Positions 10,184 to 16,283 of a DNA stretch of 45,803 bases are shown in pieces. Position numbers and translations under genes: made by a program. The number at the start of each line of letters is the position of its first letter. Within the stretch, counting starts at the first letter, position 1. Source of the stretch: Phycisphaeraceae bacterium. GTDB lineage: Bacteria > Planctomycetota > Phycisphaerae > Phycisphaerales > Phycisphaeraceae. The stretch covers positions 1 through 45,803 of the forward strand of contig JANQKT010000042.1 of the NCBI GenBank assembly GCA_028280965.1, given 5' to 3'. The notes under the pieces are model-generated. The model saw only the letters and a list, made by a program, of their open reading frames with translations, was not told where the DNA came from and ran no database searches.

Positions 10184-10260
10184 GTCTTAGCCGCCGCCAG
10201 CAAGGCGGCACGTGGGCAAGTGACGCGACGACGTGCCGCCTTGCTGGCGGCGGCTAAGAC
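10184..10260. repeat. Perfect 30-bp inverted repeat with nested palindromes
   Basis: Arms 10184-10213 and 10231-10260 are exact reverse complements, separated by 17 nt. Each arm contains its own small hairpin (GCCGCC-AGCAA-GGCGGC). It lies between the divergent zinc-ribbon gene and the riboswitch promoter. There is no U-tract, so it is not a standard terminator. Confidence 0.9.
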
Positions 10261-10281: not shown

Positions 10282-10310
10282 TTGCTCGCATACCTCTTTG
10301 GCGTTATGCT
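10282..10310 (+). promoter_or_regulatory. Predicted promoter of the cobalamin-riboswitch operon
   Basis: TTGCTC (10282-10287), a 17-nt spacer and TATGCT (10305-10310). Transcription would begin near 10317, a few bases before the first conserved helix of the riboswitch, which fits very well. Confidence 0.6.
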
Positions 10311-10322
10311 GCCTGCTGACCC

Positions 10323-10566
10323 CCAGGTGCCCTTTGATCCGCTTTAGCCGGCGGTCGGGGGGTGAAAAGGGAAGTGGGGTGACCGAATCGGGCCGCTGCC
10401 GGCACATCAACGCTTGGCAGTGAATAGCTTGCCCGGATCGGGATTCCCCCGCGGACGCGCCGCCGTGACGGGCACGTGTCTGGCCGAGTATGCCACTGGA
10501 TCGCCTGCAACGGGCGCTCTGGGAAGGCGGGCCAGATCCACCCGGAGCCGGAAGACCTGCCTGCCG
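10323..10566 (+). ncRNA. Cobalamin riboswitch
   Basis: The region carries conserved landmarks of the cobalamin (AdoCbl-type) riboswitch in the right order. The closing helix P1 pairs CAGGT (10324-10328) with ACCTG (10555-10559). GGGAAG (10369-10374) is followed by GGTGA (10378-10382) and AATCGGG (10386-10392). A CCCCCGC segment is at ~10446, GCCACTG at 10492-10498 and TGGGAAGGC at 10520-10528. The B12 box AGCCGGAAGACCTGCC at 10546-10561 matches 14 of 16 positions of the consensus as I remember it. A variable insert of about 45 nt follows P3/P4. A strong hairpin (GCCCGGA-TGG-TCCGGGC, 10566-10582) directly downstream may be part of the expression platform, but no U-tract is seen, so control could be at translation. 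The next gene starts at 10756. Confidence 0.9.
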
Positions 10567-10755
10567 CCCGGATGGTCCGGGCATGGGGTGACCGGATCGA
10601 GGTCCTCGCGAAGAAGGACGCCGGTTGCCTGGCCCCTCGCTGCATCATCGCATGCAGCGTGCTCTCGGCGGCACAGGCACGGTGCCCAACCTCTCGAGCC
10701 CACCTCGGTCCATCCTTCGCTTGTCCCGCGCGAGTCGGGGCGGAAAGGCATGGCT

Positions 10756-11574
10756 ATGCATTGTTTCTGGATCGGAGCCGCGGGCGGTTGTCTCGCGGCG
10801 GGCAGCGTTGGTTTCGCCGACGCATCTTTCGTTGACCACGTGGTGTCCTACACGCCGGGCACGGGCGTCGGCGGCTACACCAACCCCGACGCCGCGCTGG
10901 GCAAGCCCGGCGACGACACCGGGTTCGGGCTGCTAACCCCGTTCAACCCACACTTCTCAACCGATGAACTGGCACGCATCGGCGGAGGCGGCGAACTCAC
11001 ACTCCGCTTCGCTAACGAGGTGCTCGTCGGCCCGGGCCTTGACATCGGCATCTACACCAACGTCTTCCTGATCAACAACCAGGGCGGCACCGGCGCGAAC
11101 AACCCCGCAGCCTCATTCGGCGGCGACAGCGTCTCGGTCCAGGTCAGCGCCAACGGCACCGACTGGGCCGCGGTCGATACATCAACAACACCGTTCGATC
11201 TGCCGCACACGTTCTACCTCAACCCCGAAGCGCTGACCGCGTCTGCTTCATCACCGCCGGCCATCCCGATCGAGGCGGACTTCGGCAAACCCTTCGATGC
11301 CACATTGTCCGACTTCGACGGCCTGACATTCGATCAGATCGCCAGCCTGCTCAACGGCTCGGCCGGCGGGACCTGGCTGGACCTCTCGCCGACCGGTCTG
11401 GACGCGGTGTCGTATATCCGCTTTGACAACCCCGGCGACACCTTCGAACTCGACGCGGTCTCGATCGCCAACCACAAAATCGGCCCGGCCGTGCCCGAGC
11501 CCGCATCGTTGAGCCTTGTGCTTGTCCTACTCGCCACCACCACACCTCGGCGGGCCTATCGGCCGTCGAACTAA
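10756..11574 (+). CDS. PEP-CTERM surface protein under cobalamin riboswitch
   Basis: 272 residues. The start at 10756 is chosen because GGAAAGG (10742-10748) lies 7 nt upstream; the ATG at 10750 would be too close. A signal peptide (to about GFADA) is followed by FVDHVVSYTPGTGVGGYTNP, a DAALGKP segment, a GGGGELTLRF strand, and 'DIGIYTNVFL'. This layout recalls a class of secreted beta-sandwich proteins with 'aLG.P ... GGGG.l.l.F' that I remember from Bacteroidota and Verrucomicrobiota surface loci. The C-terminus has VPEPASL, a hydrophobic stretch and a short basic tail (PRRAYRPSN), a PEP-CTERM signal for exosortase-dependent surface attachment. It is the first gene after the riboswitch, and the next starts 15 nt downstream, so the two form an operon. 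A role in binding cobalamin or a cobalamin carrier is an inference from context. Confidence 0.88.
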   Translation: MHCFWIGAAGGCLAAGSVGFADASFVDHVVSYTPGTGVGGYTNPDAALGKPGDDTGFGLLTPFNPHFSTDELARIGGGGELTLRFANEVLVGPGLDIGIYTNVFLINNQGGTGANNPAASFGGDSVSVQVSANGTDWAAVDTSTTPFDLPHTFYLNPEALTASASSPPAIPIEADFGKPFDATLSDFDGLTFDQIASLLNGSAGGTWLDLSPTGLDAVSYIRFDNPGDTFELDAVSIANHKIGPAVPEPASLSLVLVLLATTTPRRAYRPSN

Positions 11575-11589
11575 CAACCGGAGAAAACC

Positions 11590-12174
11590 ATGCAACACGC
11601 AATCAAACACGTGATCGCCTCATGCCTGACCATCACGATGGCGGCCGCCGTCTCTGCCGAGCTGCTGCCCGGCTACTCGGCCGGCAGCGGGGCTAATACC
11701 TCGCAGGTCATCATCGATTTCGGCTTCCAGGGCGGCGACGCCTACCTGTTCGACTACCGTTACGACGGTGACGCTACCGCCGAGGACATGCTGCTGGCGC
11801 TCGACGCGGCCGGCGACCTCACGGTCCACCACCAGTTCTTCGAGTTCGGCGGCGTCTCCTCGATCTTTATCGACGGCTTTTCGTTCGACGGCAACAGCGC
11901 GGTACCGAGCTTCGAAGGCGCGGCCGGCGAGTCGTGGTCGTACTGGATCGTCGATGACCGCGTTGCCGGGCCGAGCTTCTATGTTTCCTCGCCCACCGGC
12001 GCGACCGACCGCGTGCTTGAAGACGGATCGATCGATGGCTGGTCGCTGAACATCTCCGAGTTCAACTCGATGGGGCTTGATCCAACATTCACTCAGCCAA
12101 CGGTCATCCCCGAGCCGGCAAGCGCGGCCCTGCTGATGCTGGGCGGGCTGGTGCTTGCGCGACGCCGACGCTGA
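11590..12174 (+). CDS. PEP-CTERM surface protein with DUF4430/transcobalamin-like residue pattern
   Basis: 194 residues with a good Shine-Dalgarno (GGAGAAAACC) before the ATG. A signal peptide ends near VSAE. The single domain shows an ordered pattern: DYRYDGDATAEDMLLAL (helix), a strand HHQFFEFG, then SIFIDGFSFDG, SWSYWIVDD and 'GATDRVLEDGSIDGWSL'. This follows what I remember of DUF4430, the fold of the C-terminal domain of transcobalamin and intrinsic factor ('..s.IdG ... gWmYyvNg ... gad.y.l.dGD.I.W'). It ends with IPEPASA, a hydrophobic stretch and RRRR, a textbook PEP-CTERM tail. It sits 15 nt after the first PEP-CTERM gene and shares its riboswitch. Surface binding of B12 is the leading hypothesis; the homology needs profile confirmation. 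Confidence 0.88.
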   Translation: MQHAIKHVIASCLTITMAAAVSAELLPGYSAGSGANTSQVIIDFGFQGGDAYLFDYRYDGDATAEDMLLALDAAGDLTVHHQFFEFGGVSSIFIDGFSFDGNSAVPSFEGAAGESWSYWIVDDRVAGPSFYVSSPTGATDRVLEDGSIDGWSLNISEFNSMGLDPTFTQPTVIPEPASAALLMLGGLVLARRRR

Positions 12175-12231: not shown

Positions 12232-13011
12232 ATGGATCACCGCCGCACACGCCATCCCGGTTTCACGCTGATCGAGCTGCTCGTGGTGATCTCGATCATC
12301 GCGCTGTTGCTCGCCTTGCTGCTGCCCGCGCTCGGCGGCGCGCGTCAGTCAGCCCGCGCGACACAGTGCCTCAGCAGCCAGCGCCAGCTGACAATCGCGC
12401 TCACCAATCACGCGGCTGAGCACGATGGTCTGCTGATGCACTTCGCCGAGCGCGAGCCGGACGGCGTGCAGTGGTGGTTCGGCTTCGAGCCGGGCGGGCC
12501 GGCCAACTCAGCCAGCCGCCCGCTCGACAAGTCCCGCGGGCCGCTGGCCCACTACCTCGGCGACGACATCGATCAGGGCCTGGCCTGCCCCGCGTTCCCC
12601 GACAACGACCCGGGCTTTGTCGCCAAGTTCCGCGAGCGCTCGGCCCACTTCGGCTACAACGGCGGGCTCGCCTGGCCGTTCCCGATCGGCAGGACGCCCG
12701 AGCGCATCGATGCGGTCGCTCAGCCATCCGGGGTCTTCGCCTTCGCCGACGCGGTGCACCAGGACTTCAGCACGAGCACGTTCTACGAGCCGCACACCGT
12801 CGCGTACCGCAGGCCGGGCAAGGTCACGGGGGCCGGACACTTCCGCCACGCCGGCCGGGCCAACCTCGCGATGCTCGATGGGCACGCCGGGCCGATCGAC
12901 CCGCCGGAGGGCGAAAGCGTTTGGGCAAGGTTCGGAGCAGGTGACGTGATCAACCTCGACACCGCCGACGGCGCCGGCACGCGGTACGGTTTTCATACCT
13001 GGACGCGATGA
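12232..13011 (+). CDS. Prepilin-like protein with N-methylation site and H-X9-DG motif
   Basis: 259 residues; start taken at the ATG 12232 ([10 protein letters not shown]...). The type IV prepilin leader is RHPG followed by [24 protein letters not shown], with cleavage expected after the Gly and the Glu at position +5. The rest is a globular domain ending with the H-X9-DG signature ([12 protein letters not shown], near residue 218), which defines a family of planctomycete/verrucomicrobial pseudopilins thought to be processed and exported through a type II-secretion-like apparatus. It follows the riboswitch-controlled PEP-CTERM pair by 57 nt, with a hairpin in the gap, so membership of that operon is plausible but unproven. 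No pilus or secretion genes are nearby. Confidence 0.9.
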
Positions 13012-14798: not shown

Positions 14799-16274
14799 TC
14801 AGATAGCGCGCCGGCGTCGAACAAACAGGCCGAGAGCGAAGCCGGCAAATACAATTGCGGCGCTCGGCTCCGGGACGGTCGCGACAAAAAGACCCGATGA
14901 ACCGTCCTCAAAGTCGAGTTCGAACAAGACCTCGCCTTCATCGTTGAAGCCGTCCGGGGTGATCTGCATACCCACGATCCGCCGAAGGTCTTCGGCCGCG
15001 TCGGGTGCGGCATCGAAGAGATCACCTTCCTTGGCAATCAGTTCAAGTTGGCCGTCGATCTGGACAAACAGCGCCAAATCGAATGCAGGCGGGAATGCAG
15101 CATCCTGGCCGTCTTCTATAAAGCTGCCAATAAACGCAAAATCCCCGTTGTTGTTTAGCGAGGCCACCCCGGCGCCGGTGATCTCCATCTCTTTGCCGTC
15201 AAAGGTTCGGGGGATATGGGTCTGCAGCACCAGGTCGATCTCGGAACCCGGCCCATCGGTCGGTCCGAACCAGCCGCGTATGATCTGGCCAGAGCCATTG
15301 GTCATGCTGCCCCGCAACAGGACATCGCCACGCGCGTTGACCGCCTCGGCGCTGGTCCCGGAGTTGAAAACGGCCCCGTCGTTTCGGCCCGGCACCGGGT
15401 CACCCGAGCGGCTGGGCGGGCCCAATTGTCGGACACCCTGCTCTGAGGCGGCGTAGATGAAGGTCTCTATGTTACGGCGGAGAGTGCTCCCCGGGCTCGG
15501 GTATTCCAAGAGCGCTTCATAGGCGACTTCGCCGGTATCGAGGATCGTCAGAACCTGGAGCAGTTGTTGGTACCGCCGATCCAACGGTGCCGCGGGCGGC
15601 ATATCGTTTTCGGAGGTCAATTGGACATGGCCTGCCCCGCCTGAGGCCGGCCCGTAAAGCGTCTGTGTCACAAGCGGCCCAAGCGTCGCGATGAATGCGA
15701 TATCACCCGCATCACTGATTGTTGGCTGGGAACCCGAGCGATTCAGAAAATTGATGCTTCCATTAAATCCCAGGTTCGGGTCGTCTCGACGCGCGATCAC
15801 TGTCGTCGGCGAGCCTGGCCCCGCCGAAGGCCCGAACACCGCGTGTGCAGCTAAACCGAGCGGGGAATCCGGGTTGAGTTCCGCCAGGAAGGCGACATCA
15901 CCGAATGCGTTAAGGGTAACGCCACGCTCGAAATCGAAAAGCGTCGTACCATCACCAAACCCCGGCGCGGCGTCTCCGACGGCGAACAGCCTCCCCAGAG
16001 CGGACCCCGCACCGTCGGTGGGCCCGAACAAAGCAGACGTCCCTTGCTCCGAAAGGTCCTGCAGCCCTGCGATAAAGGCCACATCCCCCGCGTTGTTCAG
16101 CGACGGCCGCTCCCCGAAACCCGTGTAAATCAGGCCGCCCGCACCCGGCGCGGCCTCGCCGCTGAGCGCGACGGTGCGGTAGGGAACACCCGCAGACACG
16201 GACCCGCAGATGCTGATAGTCCCCAACACCGATACAACAGCTCGATGAACACCCAACGGTTTCAGTTTTTTCAT
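14799..16274 (-). CDS. PEP-CTERM protein with tandem 'N-x-x-G-D-V-A-F' repeats
   Basis: 491 residues from the ATG at 16274, preceded by AAGAGGA about 10 nt upstream. A signal peptide is followed by about seven repeats of ~55-65 residues. Each has a core like SLNNAGDVAFIAGL, TLNAFGDVAFLAEL, TISDAGDIAFIATL, TILDTGEVAYEALL, AVNARGDVLLRGSM, SLNNNGDFAFIGSF and DGFNDEGEVLFELDF. This pattern (DUF7453-like, beta-propeller-like blades) is frequent in planctomycete surface proteins; a seven-bladed propeller would fit the repeat number. The C-terminus VPEPSA, hydrophobic stretch and RRRRAI is a PEP-CTERM signal. Each blade carries an Ala/Gly-rich loop with PSDGPGS-like spacing. Ligand unknown. Confidence 0.87.
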   Translation of the reverse strand: MKKLKPLGVHRAVVSVLGTISICGSVSAGVPYRTVALSGEAAPGAGGLIYTGFGERPSLNNAGDVAFIAGLQDLSEQGTSALFGPTDGAGSALGRLFAVGDAAPGFGDGTTLFDFERGVTLNAFGDVAFLAELNPDSPLGLAAHAVFGPSAGPGSPTTVIARRDDPNLGFNGSINFLNRSGSQPTISDAGDIAFIATLGPLVTQTLYGPASGGAGHVQLTSENDMPPAAPLDRRYQQLLQVLTILDTGEVAYEALLEYPSPGSTLRRNIETFIYAASEQGVRQLGPPSRSGDPVPGRNDGAVFNSGTSAEAVNARGDVLLRGSMTNGSGQIIRGWFGPTDGPGSEIDLVLQTHIPRTFDGKEMEITGAGVASLNNNGDFAFIGSFIEDGQDAAFPPAFDLALFVQIDGQLELIAKEGDLFDAAPDAAEDLRRIVGMQITPDGFNDEGEVLFELDFEDGSSGLFVATVPEPSAAIVFAGFALGLFVRRRRAI

Positions 16275-16283
16275 ACCACACAC

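Follow-up and report, generated by a model that had tools for sequence, protein, structure and literature searches.

We report a family of bacterial proteins, predicted to be secreted, whose conserved domain is modelled with the fold shared by the transcobalamin β domain and DUF4430, and whose genes are regularly found behind cobalamin riboswitches. The member studied here, a 194-residue protein of a Phycisphaeraceae bacterium, is likely to be the transcobalamin-β-like half of a B12-repressed, secreted, PEP-CTERM-anchored two-part B12 binder. Together, the riboswitch, a BtuH-like partner and a pilus-like protein suggest an undescribed way of capturing B12 at the planctomycete surface. The family would represent a free-living bacterial version of the vertebrate β domain. 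It is accompanied by a pseudopilin and by a second domain resembling a B12 binder, and in about half of its carriers no TonB plug domain was found. Two questions become testable: how B12 passes over the planctomycete outer membrane, and from where the transcobalamin β domain originated. If the most speculative reading given below, a TonB-independent uptake of B12, is true, the β half of the vertebrate B12 carriers would be an old bacterial B12-capture domain.

The riboswitch-associated cassette of the window

The window (the whole stretch of DNA analysed, 45,803 nucleotides) carries, all on the forward strand and in this order, a cobalamin riboswitch, a gene for a 274-residue partner, the gene for the 194-residue protein and a pseudopilin gene (Table 1). 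The riboswitch is the sole Rfam match at the gathering level in the window. The preliminary description had placed the 194-residue open frame, which is present and opens with ATG, under a cobalamin riboswitch: the riboswitch is there, but the gene is the second and not the first behind it, the partner gene intervening and ending 15 nt before its ATG. From the close spacing and the conservation of the gene set across loci, we infer that the riboswitch, partner, family gene and pseudopilin constitute one operon. Just upstream of the riboswitch, a perfect 30-bp inverted repeat is visible by eye (10184-10260; arms 10184-10213 and 10231-10260, 17-nt loop); it could act as a terminator in both directions or represent a mobile repeat.

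Table 1. Features of the cassette, with their positions in the window
Feature	Position	Strand	Basis
Cobalamin riboswitch aptamer (RF00174)	10308..10578	+	Full-length match 1-189; 60.7 bits, gathering 31.5
Partner gene; its secreted product of 274 aa has a predicted jelly-roll domain and a weak PEP-CTERM tail	10750..11574	+	ORF from ATG 10750; predicted fold
Family gene, 194 aa	11590..12174	+	ORF from ATG
Predicted transcobalamin-β-like domain; residues 32-156 of the protein (14-138 of the model)	11683..12057	+	AlphaFold, VIA-align
PEP-CTERM tail (residues 173-194), a putative signal for sorting by exosortase	12106..12171	+	Pfam, TIGR02595
Pseudopilin gene, 259 aa, ATG 12232 (alternative TTG 12226)	12232..13011	+	N-methylation motif, DUF1559 start, H-X9-DG-like end

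The 194-residue protein begins, by eye, with a signal-peptide-like N terminus and ends in a PEP-CTERM tail, which is the sole family retrieved by a Pfam scan. This tail falls just below the curated cut-off of PF07589 (E 0.0013, 19.2 bits vs 20.7) and exceeds that of TIGR02595 (21.4 bits, cut-off 16), in agreement with the earlier description of a PEP-CTERM protein. With a PEP motif, a hydrophobic stretch, a basic end and three exosortases over cut-off in the source genome, it displays the features by which PEP-CTERM surface proteins are recognized, and it is probably anchored at the cell surface. Searched against its own genome, the protein returns 110 places at E≤1, nearly all via the tail. 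The PEP-CTERM match of the partner has an E-value of 0.19.

Family membership and association with B12 riboswitches

With the mature domain as query, 298 genomes of the class were searched by protein similarity alone (E≤1e-3), and the family was found in 64 of them; 65 of 66 places were kept, the one dropped from the counts (G231_C119, E 5.9e-4) being a chance frame in another protein. One copy (G234) is 60% identical to the window protein and the others mostly 25-45%. The family is characterized by a G-x-G motif, a helix motif TGxDxL, a W-x-Y motif and the pattern W..S..GA..R.L.DG..DGW: across 29 family sequences G14, G16, D25, Y100, R123 and D131 are invariant, and W98, W113, G119, L125, G128 and W133 nearly so. 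The ordered peptide pattern from which a transcobalamin-like domain had first been proposed (AEDMLLAL, SIFIDGFSFDG, SWSYWIVDD and a fourth peptide) was recovered complete and in the order given; as the same ordered motif defines the family throughout the class, the pattern exceeds chance. A second collection provided 29 loci, mostly from Planctomycetota, together with two Armatimonadetes bins and one Chthonomonadaceae bin (L117, L121, L123). A single-sequence scan of the genome contigs and a plasmid search gave no match, and a Pfam scan of 53 members returned only scattered single matches.

Because the members were gathered by protein similarity alone, the riboswitches constitute an independent test. 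At 50 of the 65 places, the 1.6 kb preceding the family gene contain an RF00174 match above gathering in the same orientation; with the genome size taken as 3.6 Mb, about 0.016 such places would be expected by chance. RF00174 occurs exactly once in 49 genomes; in 38 of these the family gene lies behind that very riboswitch, and the 11 exceptions are all genomes of the group that we label f4. A permissive Rfam search of the 15 remaining places (with G137, already counted, also included) detected AdoCbl (RF01482) or AdoCbl-II (RF01689) aptamers just upstream, below their gathering scores: cobalamin-clan matches reach E≤0.01 at ten places (G177, G209, G149, G255, G155, G297, G249, G228, G267 and G231) and are weaker, E 0.013-0.23, at three (G182, G084 and G246), a convincing aptamer being absent at two, G053 (18.2 bits, E 0.8) and G214 (contig end). 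In the second collection, RF00174 is found at 15 of the 17 loci scanned; L110 and L117, the two without it, are both at contig ends. Upstream DNA is missing at contig edges, so the absence of a riboswitch at L110, L117 and G214 means little. The link also holds in Armatimonadota. These counts bear out the expectation that orthologues lie in a B12 context, and the family gene is almost certainly under B12 control.

A loss of the B12 link in the f4 members was considered and dropped after AdoCbl-class aptamers were found there by the permissive search. Upstream of the f4 family genes (L023, L027, L031, L175-L182) these AdoCbl-type aptamers are rightly placed and score just below Rfam gathering; they are a candidate extension of RF01482. 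At one locus, an Acido-Lenti-1 RNA match lies between the family gene and the partner (L107:8565-8619, 41.9 bits, gathering 37).

Predicted folds and their relatives

The AlphaFold2 model of the 194-residue protein was built from 29 sequences (pLDDT 80.7, pTM 0.78). Transcobalamin, intrinsic factor and DUF4430 (3u7z) chains fill its first 16 Foldseek ranks, with probabilities of 0.97-1.00, the best E-value being 2.6e-3 and none lying below 0.001. By VIA-align, the top 15 PDB entries are intrinsic factor, transcobalamin, haptocorrin and DUF4430 (Z 11.1-12.8), as the preliminary description had anticipated for structure prediction, and the sixteenth is SAMP1 at Z 6.2. The alignments include intrinsic factor 2pmv (Z 12.8, 106 residues, 2.0 Å), haptocorrin (Z 12.1), the transcobalamin β domain alone with CNCbl (5np4, Z 11.8) and 3u7z, which we take to be a DUF4430 member (Z 11.1, 96 residues). 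Judged from this model, the protein very probably has the transcobalamin-β/DUF4430 fold; a common fold by itself does not establish function.

Aligned by hhalign with 15 DUF4430 sequences of the phylum, a profile of 53 of the 65 class members scores 38.6 (E 2.4e-6, 93 columns); the reversed profile scores 8.1, and none of 200 column shuffles exceeds 16.0. A smaller alignment of the window protein with 28 of the 29 second-collection loci (L124 being omitted as near-identical to L125) matches DUF4430 less well and only in part (E 1.1e-4, 61 columns). Against the PDB, the family profile retrieves no chain at E≤10, and the DUF4430 profile from the phylum retrieves no B12 carrier. Not one of the 53 members matches Pfam DUF4430 (PF14478) by hmmscan at E≤1; therefore, the window family is a separate, new sister family in the transcobalamin-β/DUF4430 superfamily and not a member of Pfam DUF4430. 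The likeness to transcobalamin and DUF4430 that had been proposed for this protein thus stands for the fold and the sequence profiles, which agree, but it is confined to the β domain and does not extend to membership of Pfam DUF4430: the α/α-barrel α domain is absent from the 194-residue protein, and its neighbour is predicted to be mostly β.

The β domain of the vertebrate B12 carriers is well studied. The window protein resembles that of transcobalamin, intrinsic factor and haptocorrin in its predicted fold (Z 11.6-12.8 over 100-106 residues, 1.9-2.4 Å) and in its B12 context, whereas it differs from these carriers in having no α domain, in its low identity (6-16%), in its bacterial origin, in its PEP-CTERM tail and in the different domain that partners it. 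With Pfam DUF4430 the family shares profile-profile homology, the β-grasp fold of 3u7z and B12-linked genes in the phylum; unlike it, the window family is longer and has conserved W..S..GA..R and DGW motifs, besides being devoid of Pfam matches in all 53 members. Of the 53 members, 20 match the NCBIfam SCO2322 family (NF040672), presumably of actinobacterial origin, at E≤1, the lowest E-value being 1e-3, but the members fall far below its 85-bit cut-off (window protein: E 0.061, 13.7 bits). In 199 phylum genomes the SCO2322 model gave three weak matches, two of them members of the window family behind riboswitches; no paper on SCO2322 was found in the open-access literature.

A Pfam scan of the partner returned no family, and its model is mediocre (pLDDT 64.9, pTM 0.69). 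Its best two matches among 350,542 PDB chains are the Bacteroides proteins BtuG1 (8blw_B, E 1.6e-5) and BtuH2 (7biz_B, E 2.2e-4). Structural alignment of the model, with the pLDDT just given, covers residues 393-660 of BtuG1 (Z 10.3) and 318-593 of BtuH2 (Z 11.0); PAPP-A follows close behind (Z 9.3), and discoidin-like CBM32 modules come lower. Profiles of the partner family searched against the PDB retrieved neither BtuH nor BtuG. Judged from this mediocre model, the partner may share the fold of the B12-binding domain of BtuH. BtuH is reported to bind B12 via this domain, with contacts that include Asn399 and Phe401 (PMC8941943), and the C-terminal extension of BtuG1 is described as a BtuH domain (PMC10404256). 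The partner family has a conserved N-x-F motif (GNAF in many members, TNVF in the window; model residue 80), which lies near the position expected for Asn399 of BtuH, as judged from the aligned ranges 1-218 and 318-593 alone. The partner is like BtuH and the C-terminal domain of BtuG1 in that these are its nearest structures and in its riboswitch-linked loci, cobamide riboswitches being reported at BtuH loci (PMC8941943, PMC10404256). It is unlike BtuH in having no sequence match to it, in carrying PEP-CTERM or dockerin-like tails instead of being a lipoprotein, and in being paired with a transcobalamin-β-like domain. In an alignment of 44 of the 50 partner matches, 24 sequences have a match at E≤1 to LIC_13355, a lipoprotein family of NCBIfam (lowest E 1e-6); a role connected with B12 is thus conceivable for LIC_13355 as well.

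True DUF4430 was found by the family search in 18 of 294 phylum genomes and was not found by it in the source genome. All 18 have an RF00174 match, over cut-off in 17; as true DUF4430 genes thus also accompany cobalamin riboswitches, the transcobalamin-β/DUF4430 superfamily is B12-linked twice. In one of these genomes (G381; L159:9180-15937), the DUF4430 gene lies directly between 755-residue TonB-receptor-like and 1,347-residue CobN-like frames (named from sequence), 2.4 kb downstream of a riboswitch, in a row of genes that sits behind several cobalamin riboswitches. The CobN-like frame of this row has a signal-like start and a C-terminal membrane stretch.

Gene neighbourhoods and the proposed capture of B12

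Neighbourhoods were compared at 81 loci: the 65 class places and 16 of the 29 second-collection loci, the remainder of the latter being copies already included. Partner relatives are found at 47 of the 81 loci, same-strand pseudopilin relatives at 63 and both together at 44; with relatives at only 47 loci, the partner is not always needed nearby. Neither is nearby at 14 of the 65 places, 13 of which are in f4 genomes. The pseudopilin usually comes next after the partner or family genes, and first in the Chthonomonadaceae locus. Nor is it simply a frequent gene: ten Pfam DUF1559 matches are found in the whole genome, and at E≤1e-12 the window pseudopilin is matched in 5 of 35 genomes, each by a single match inside the cassette. 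At ten loci the partner and the transcobalamin-like domain are in one open frame, in either order: the transcobalamin-like domain is first in G265, G179, G210 and G063, and the partner in G139, G151, G163, G098, L117 and L121, the last two having a PEP-CTERM tail between the two domains. A BtuF-like gene lies within 9 kb at 5 of the 81 loci (a PF01497 periplasmic binding protein in L109), and a BtuC-like permease gene likewise at 5.

These observations lead us to propose the following scheme. At low B12 the riboswitch would permit expression of the operon; the signal peptide would export the protein, and the PEP-CTERM/exosortase route would retain it on the outer surface. There, the β-grasp domain would catch the cobamide, as isolated transcobalamin β does. 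The latter is reported to bind cobalamin by itself, and in full-length transcobalamin cobalamin is described as bound first by β, after which α closes (PMC5599065, PMC11107200). The BtuH-like partner, where present, would close on the same cobamide or add a second site, resulting in tight capture. That the 194-residue protein binds B12 is, in our judgement, quite probable; whether the transcobalamin-β-like and BtuH-like domains form a two-domain clamp is evenly poised. More speculatively, the pseudopilin may help the cargo to cross the outer membrane and reach an ABC importer of the BtuF/BtuC type, a delivery by pseudopilus that we regard as doubtful. Planctomycete fibres are reported to bind dextran, and a role of crateriform structures and fibres in macromolecule uptake is put forward in the same source as its authors' speculation (PMC5394234). 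Since most cassettes include a pseudopilin, uptake assisted by fibres merits a test. The wider proposal, that Planctomycetota and Armatimonadota have a TonB-independent B12 uptake comprising a surface clamp of the two domains and a co-expressed pseudopilin-based fibre, is offered only tentatively.

The same B12 binder might merely concentrate B12, entry occurring through an ordinary TonB receptor (BtuB) and the pseudopilin being unrelated to transport. This is a serious contender, if somewhat short of an even chance: 33 of the 64 carrier genomes, among them the source genome with two, have a TonB plug domain (30 of the 52 with a completeness of 90% or more), and true DUF4430 adjoins a TonB-receptor-like gene in another planctomycete. 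Set against this, the plug domain was not found in 31 of the 64 (22 of the 52), whereas a FecCD permease is present in 61 of the 64, and the pseudopilin belongs to the cassette at most loci. FecCD permeases serve siderophores too.

As for the ligand, the transcobalamin-β fold could instead hold cobinamide or another B12 precursor, heme or cobalt, while the riboswitch still senses cobalamin. The deposition of 3u7z as a putative metal-binding protein and the many roles of β-grasp domains (ubiquitin-like proteins at Z 5-6) speak for such a ligand, but it is improbable in view of three points: the closest structures are specifically B12 carriers, those closest to the partner are B12 binders of another fold class, and B12 riboswitches control almost all loci. 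That the protein is a structural or adhesive PEP-CTERM protein of a biofilm or matrix, its B12 link a regulatory accident, is very improbable: the 110 tail-driven places and three exosortases indicate that such proteins are common in the genome, yet an accident would not last across two phyla and three cobalamin aptamer classes, nor repeatedly be paired with a BtuH-like domain.

Secreted B12 binders in Phycisphaerae are not new as such, since the DUF4465 protein 'Pan' of Mucisphaera calidilacus, a species of this class (PMC8882080), is reported to have kept B12 through purification (PMC13398666). DUF4465 and BtuJ are secreted B12 binders, as the window family is predicted to be, but they are a different family with a jelly-roll fold; DUF4465 was considered as the fold of the window family and dropped, there being no DUF4465 match in the proteins scanned. 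A bacterial transcobalamin-β counterpart under B12 control was not found described in the open-access literature, subscription journals lying mostly outside the search.

Some loci depart from the simple arrangement of the cassette: one (L081, in G243) has a second pair of partner and pseudopilin behind a second riboswitch, and another (L093, G012_C32) has four partner-family frames around a single family gene. Further along the window, on the reverse strand (14799-16283), lies a gene for a PEP-CTERM-like protein of 494 residues with a match to Pfam DUF7453 (E 5.2e-39).
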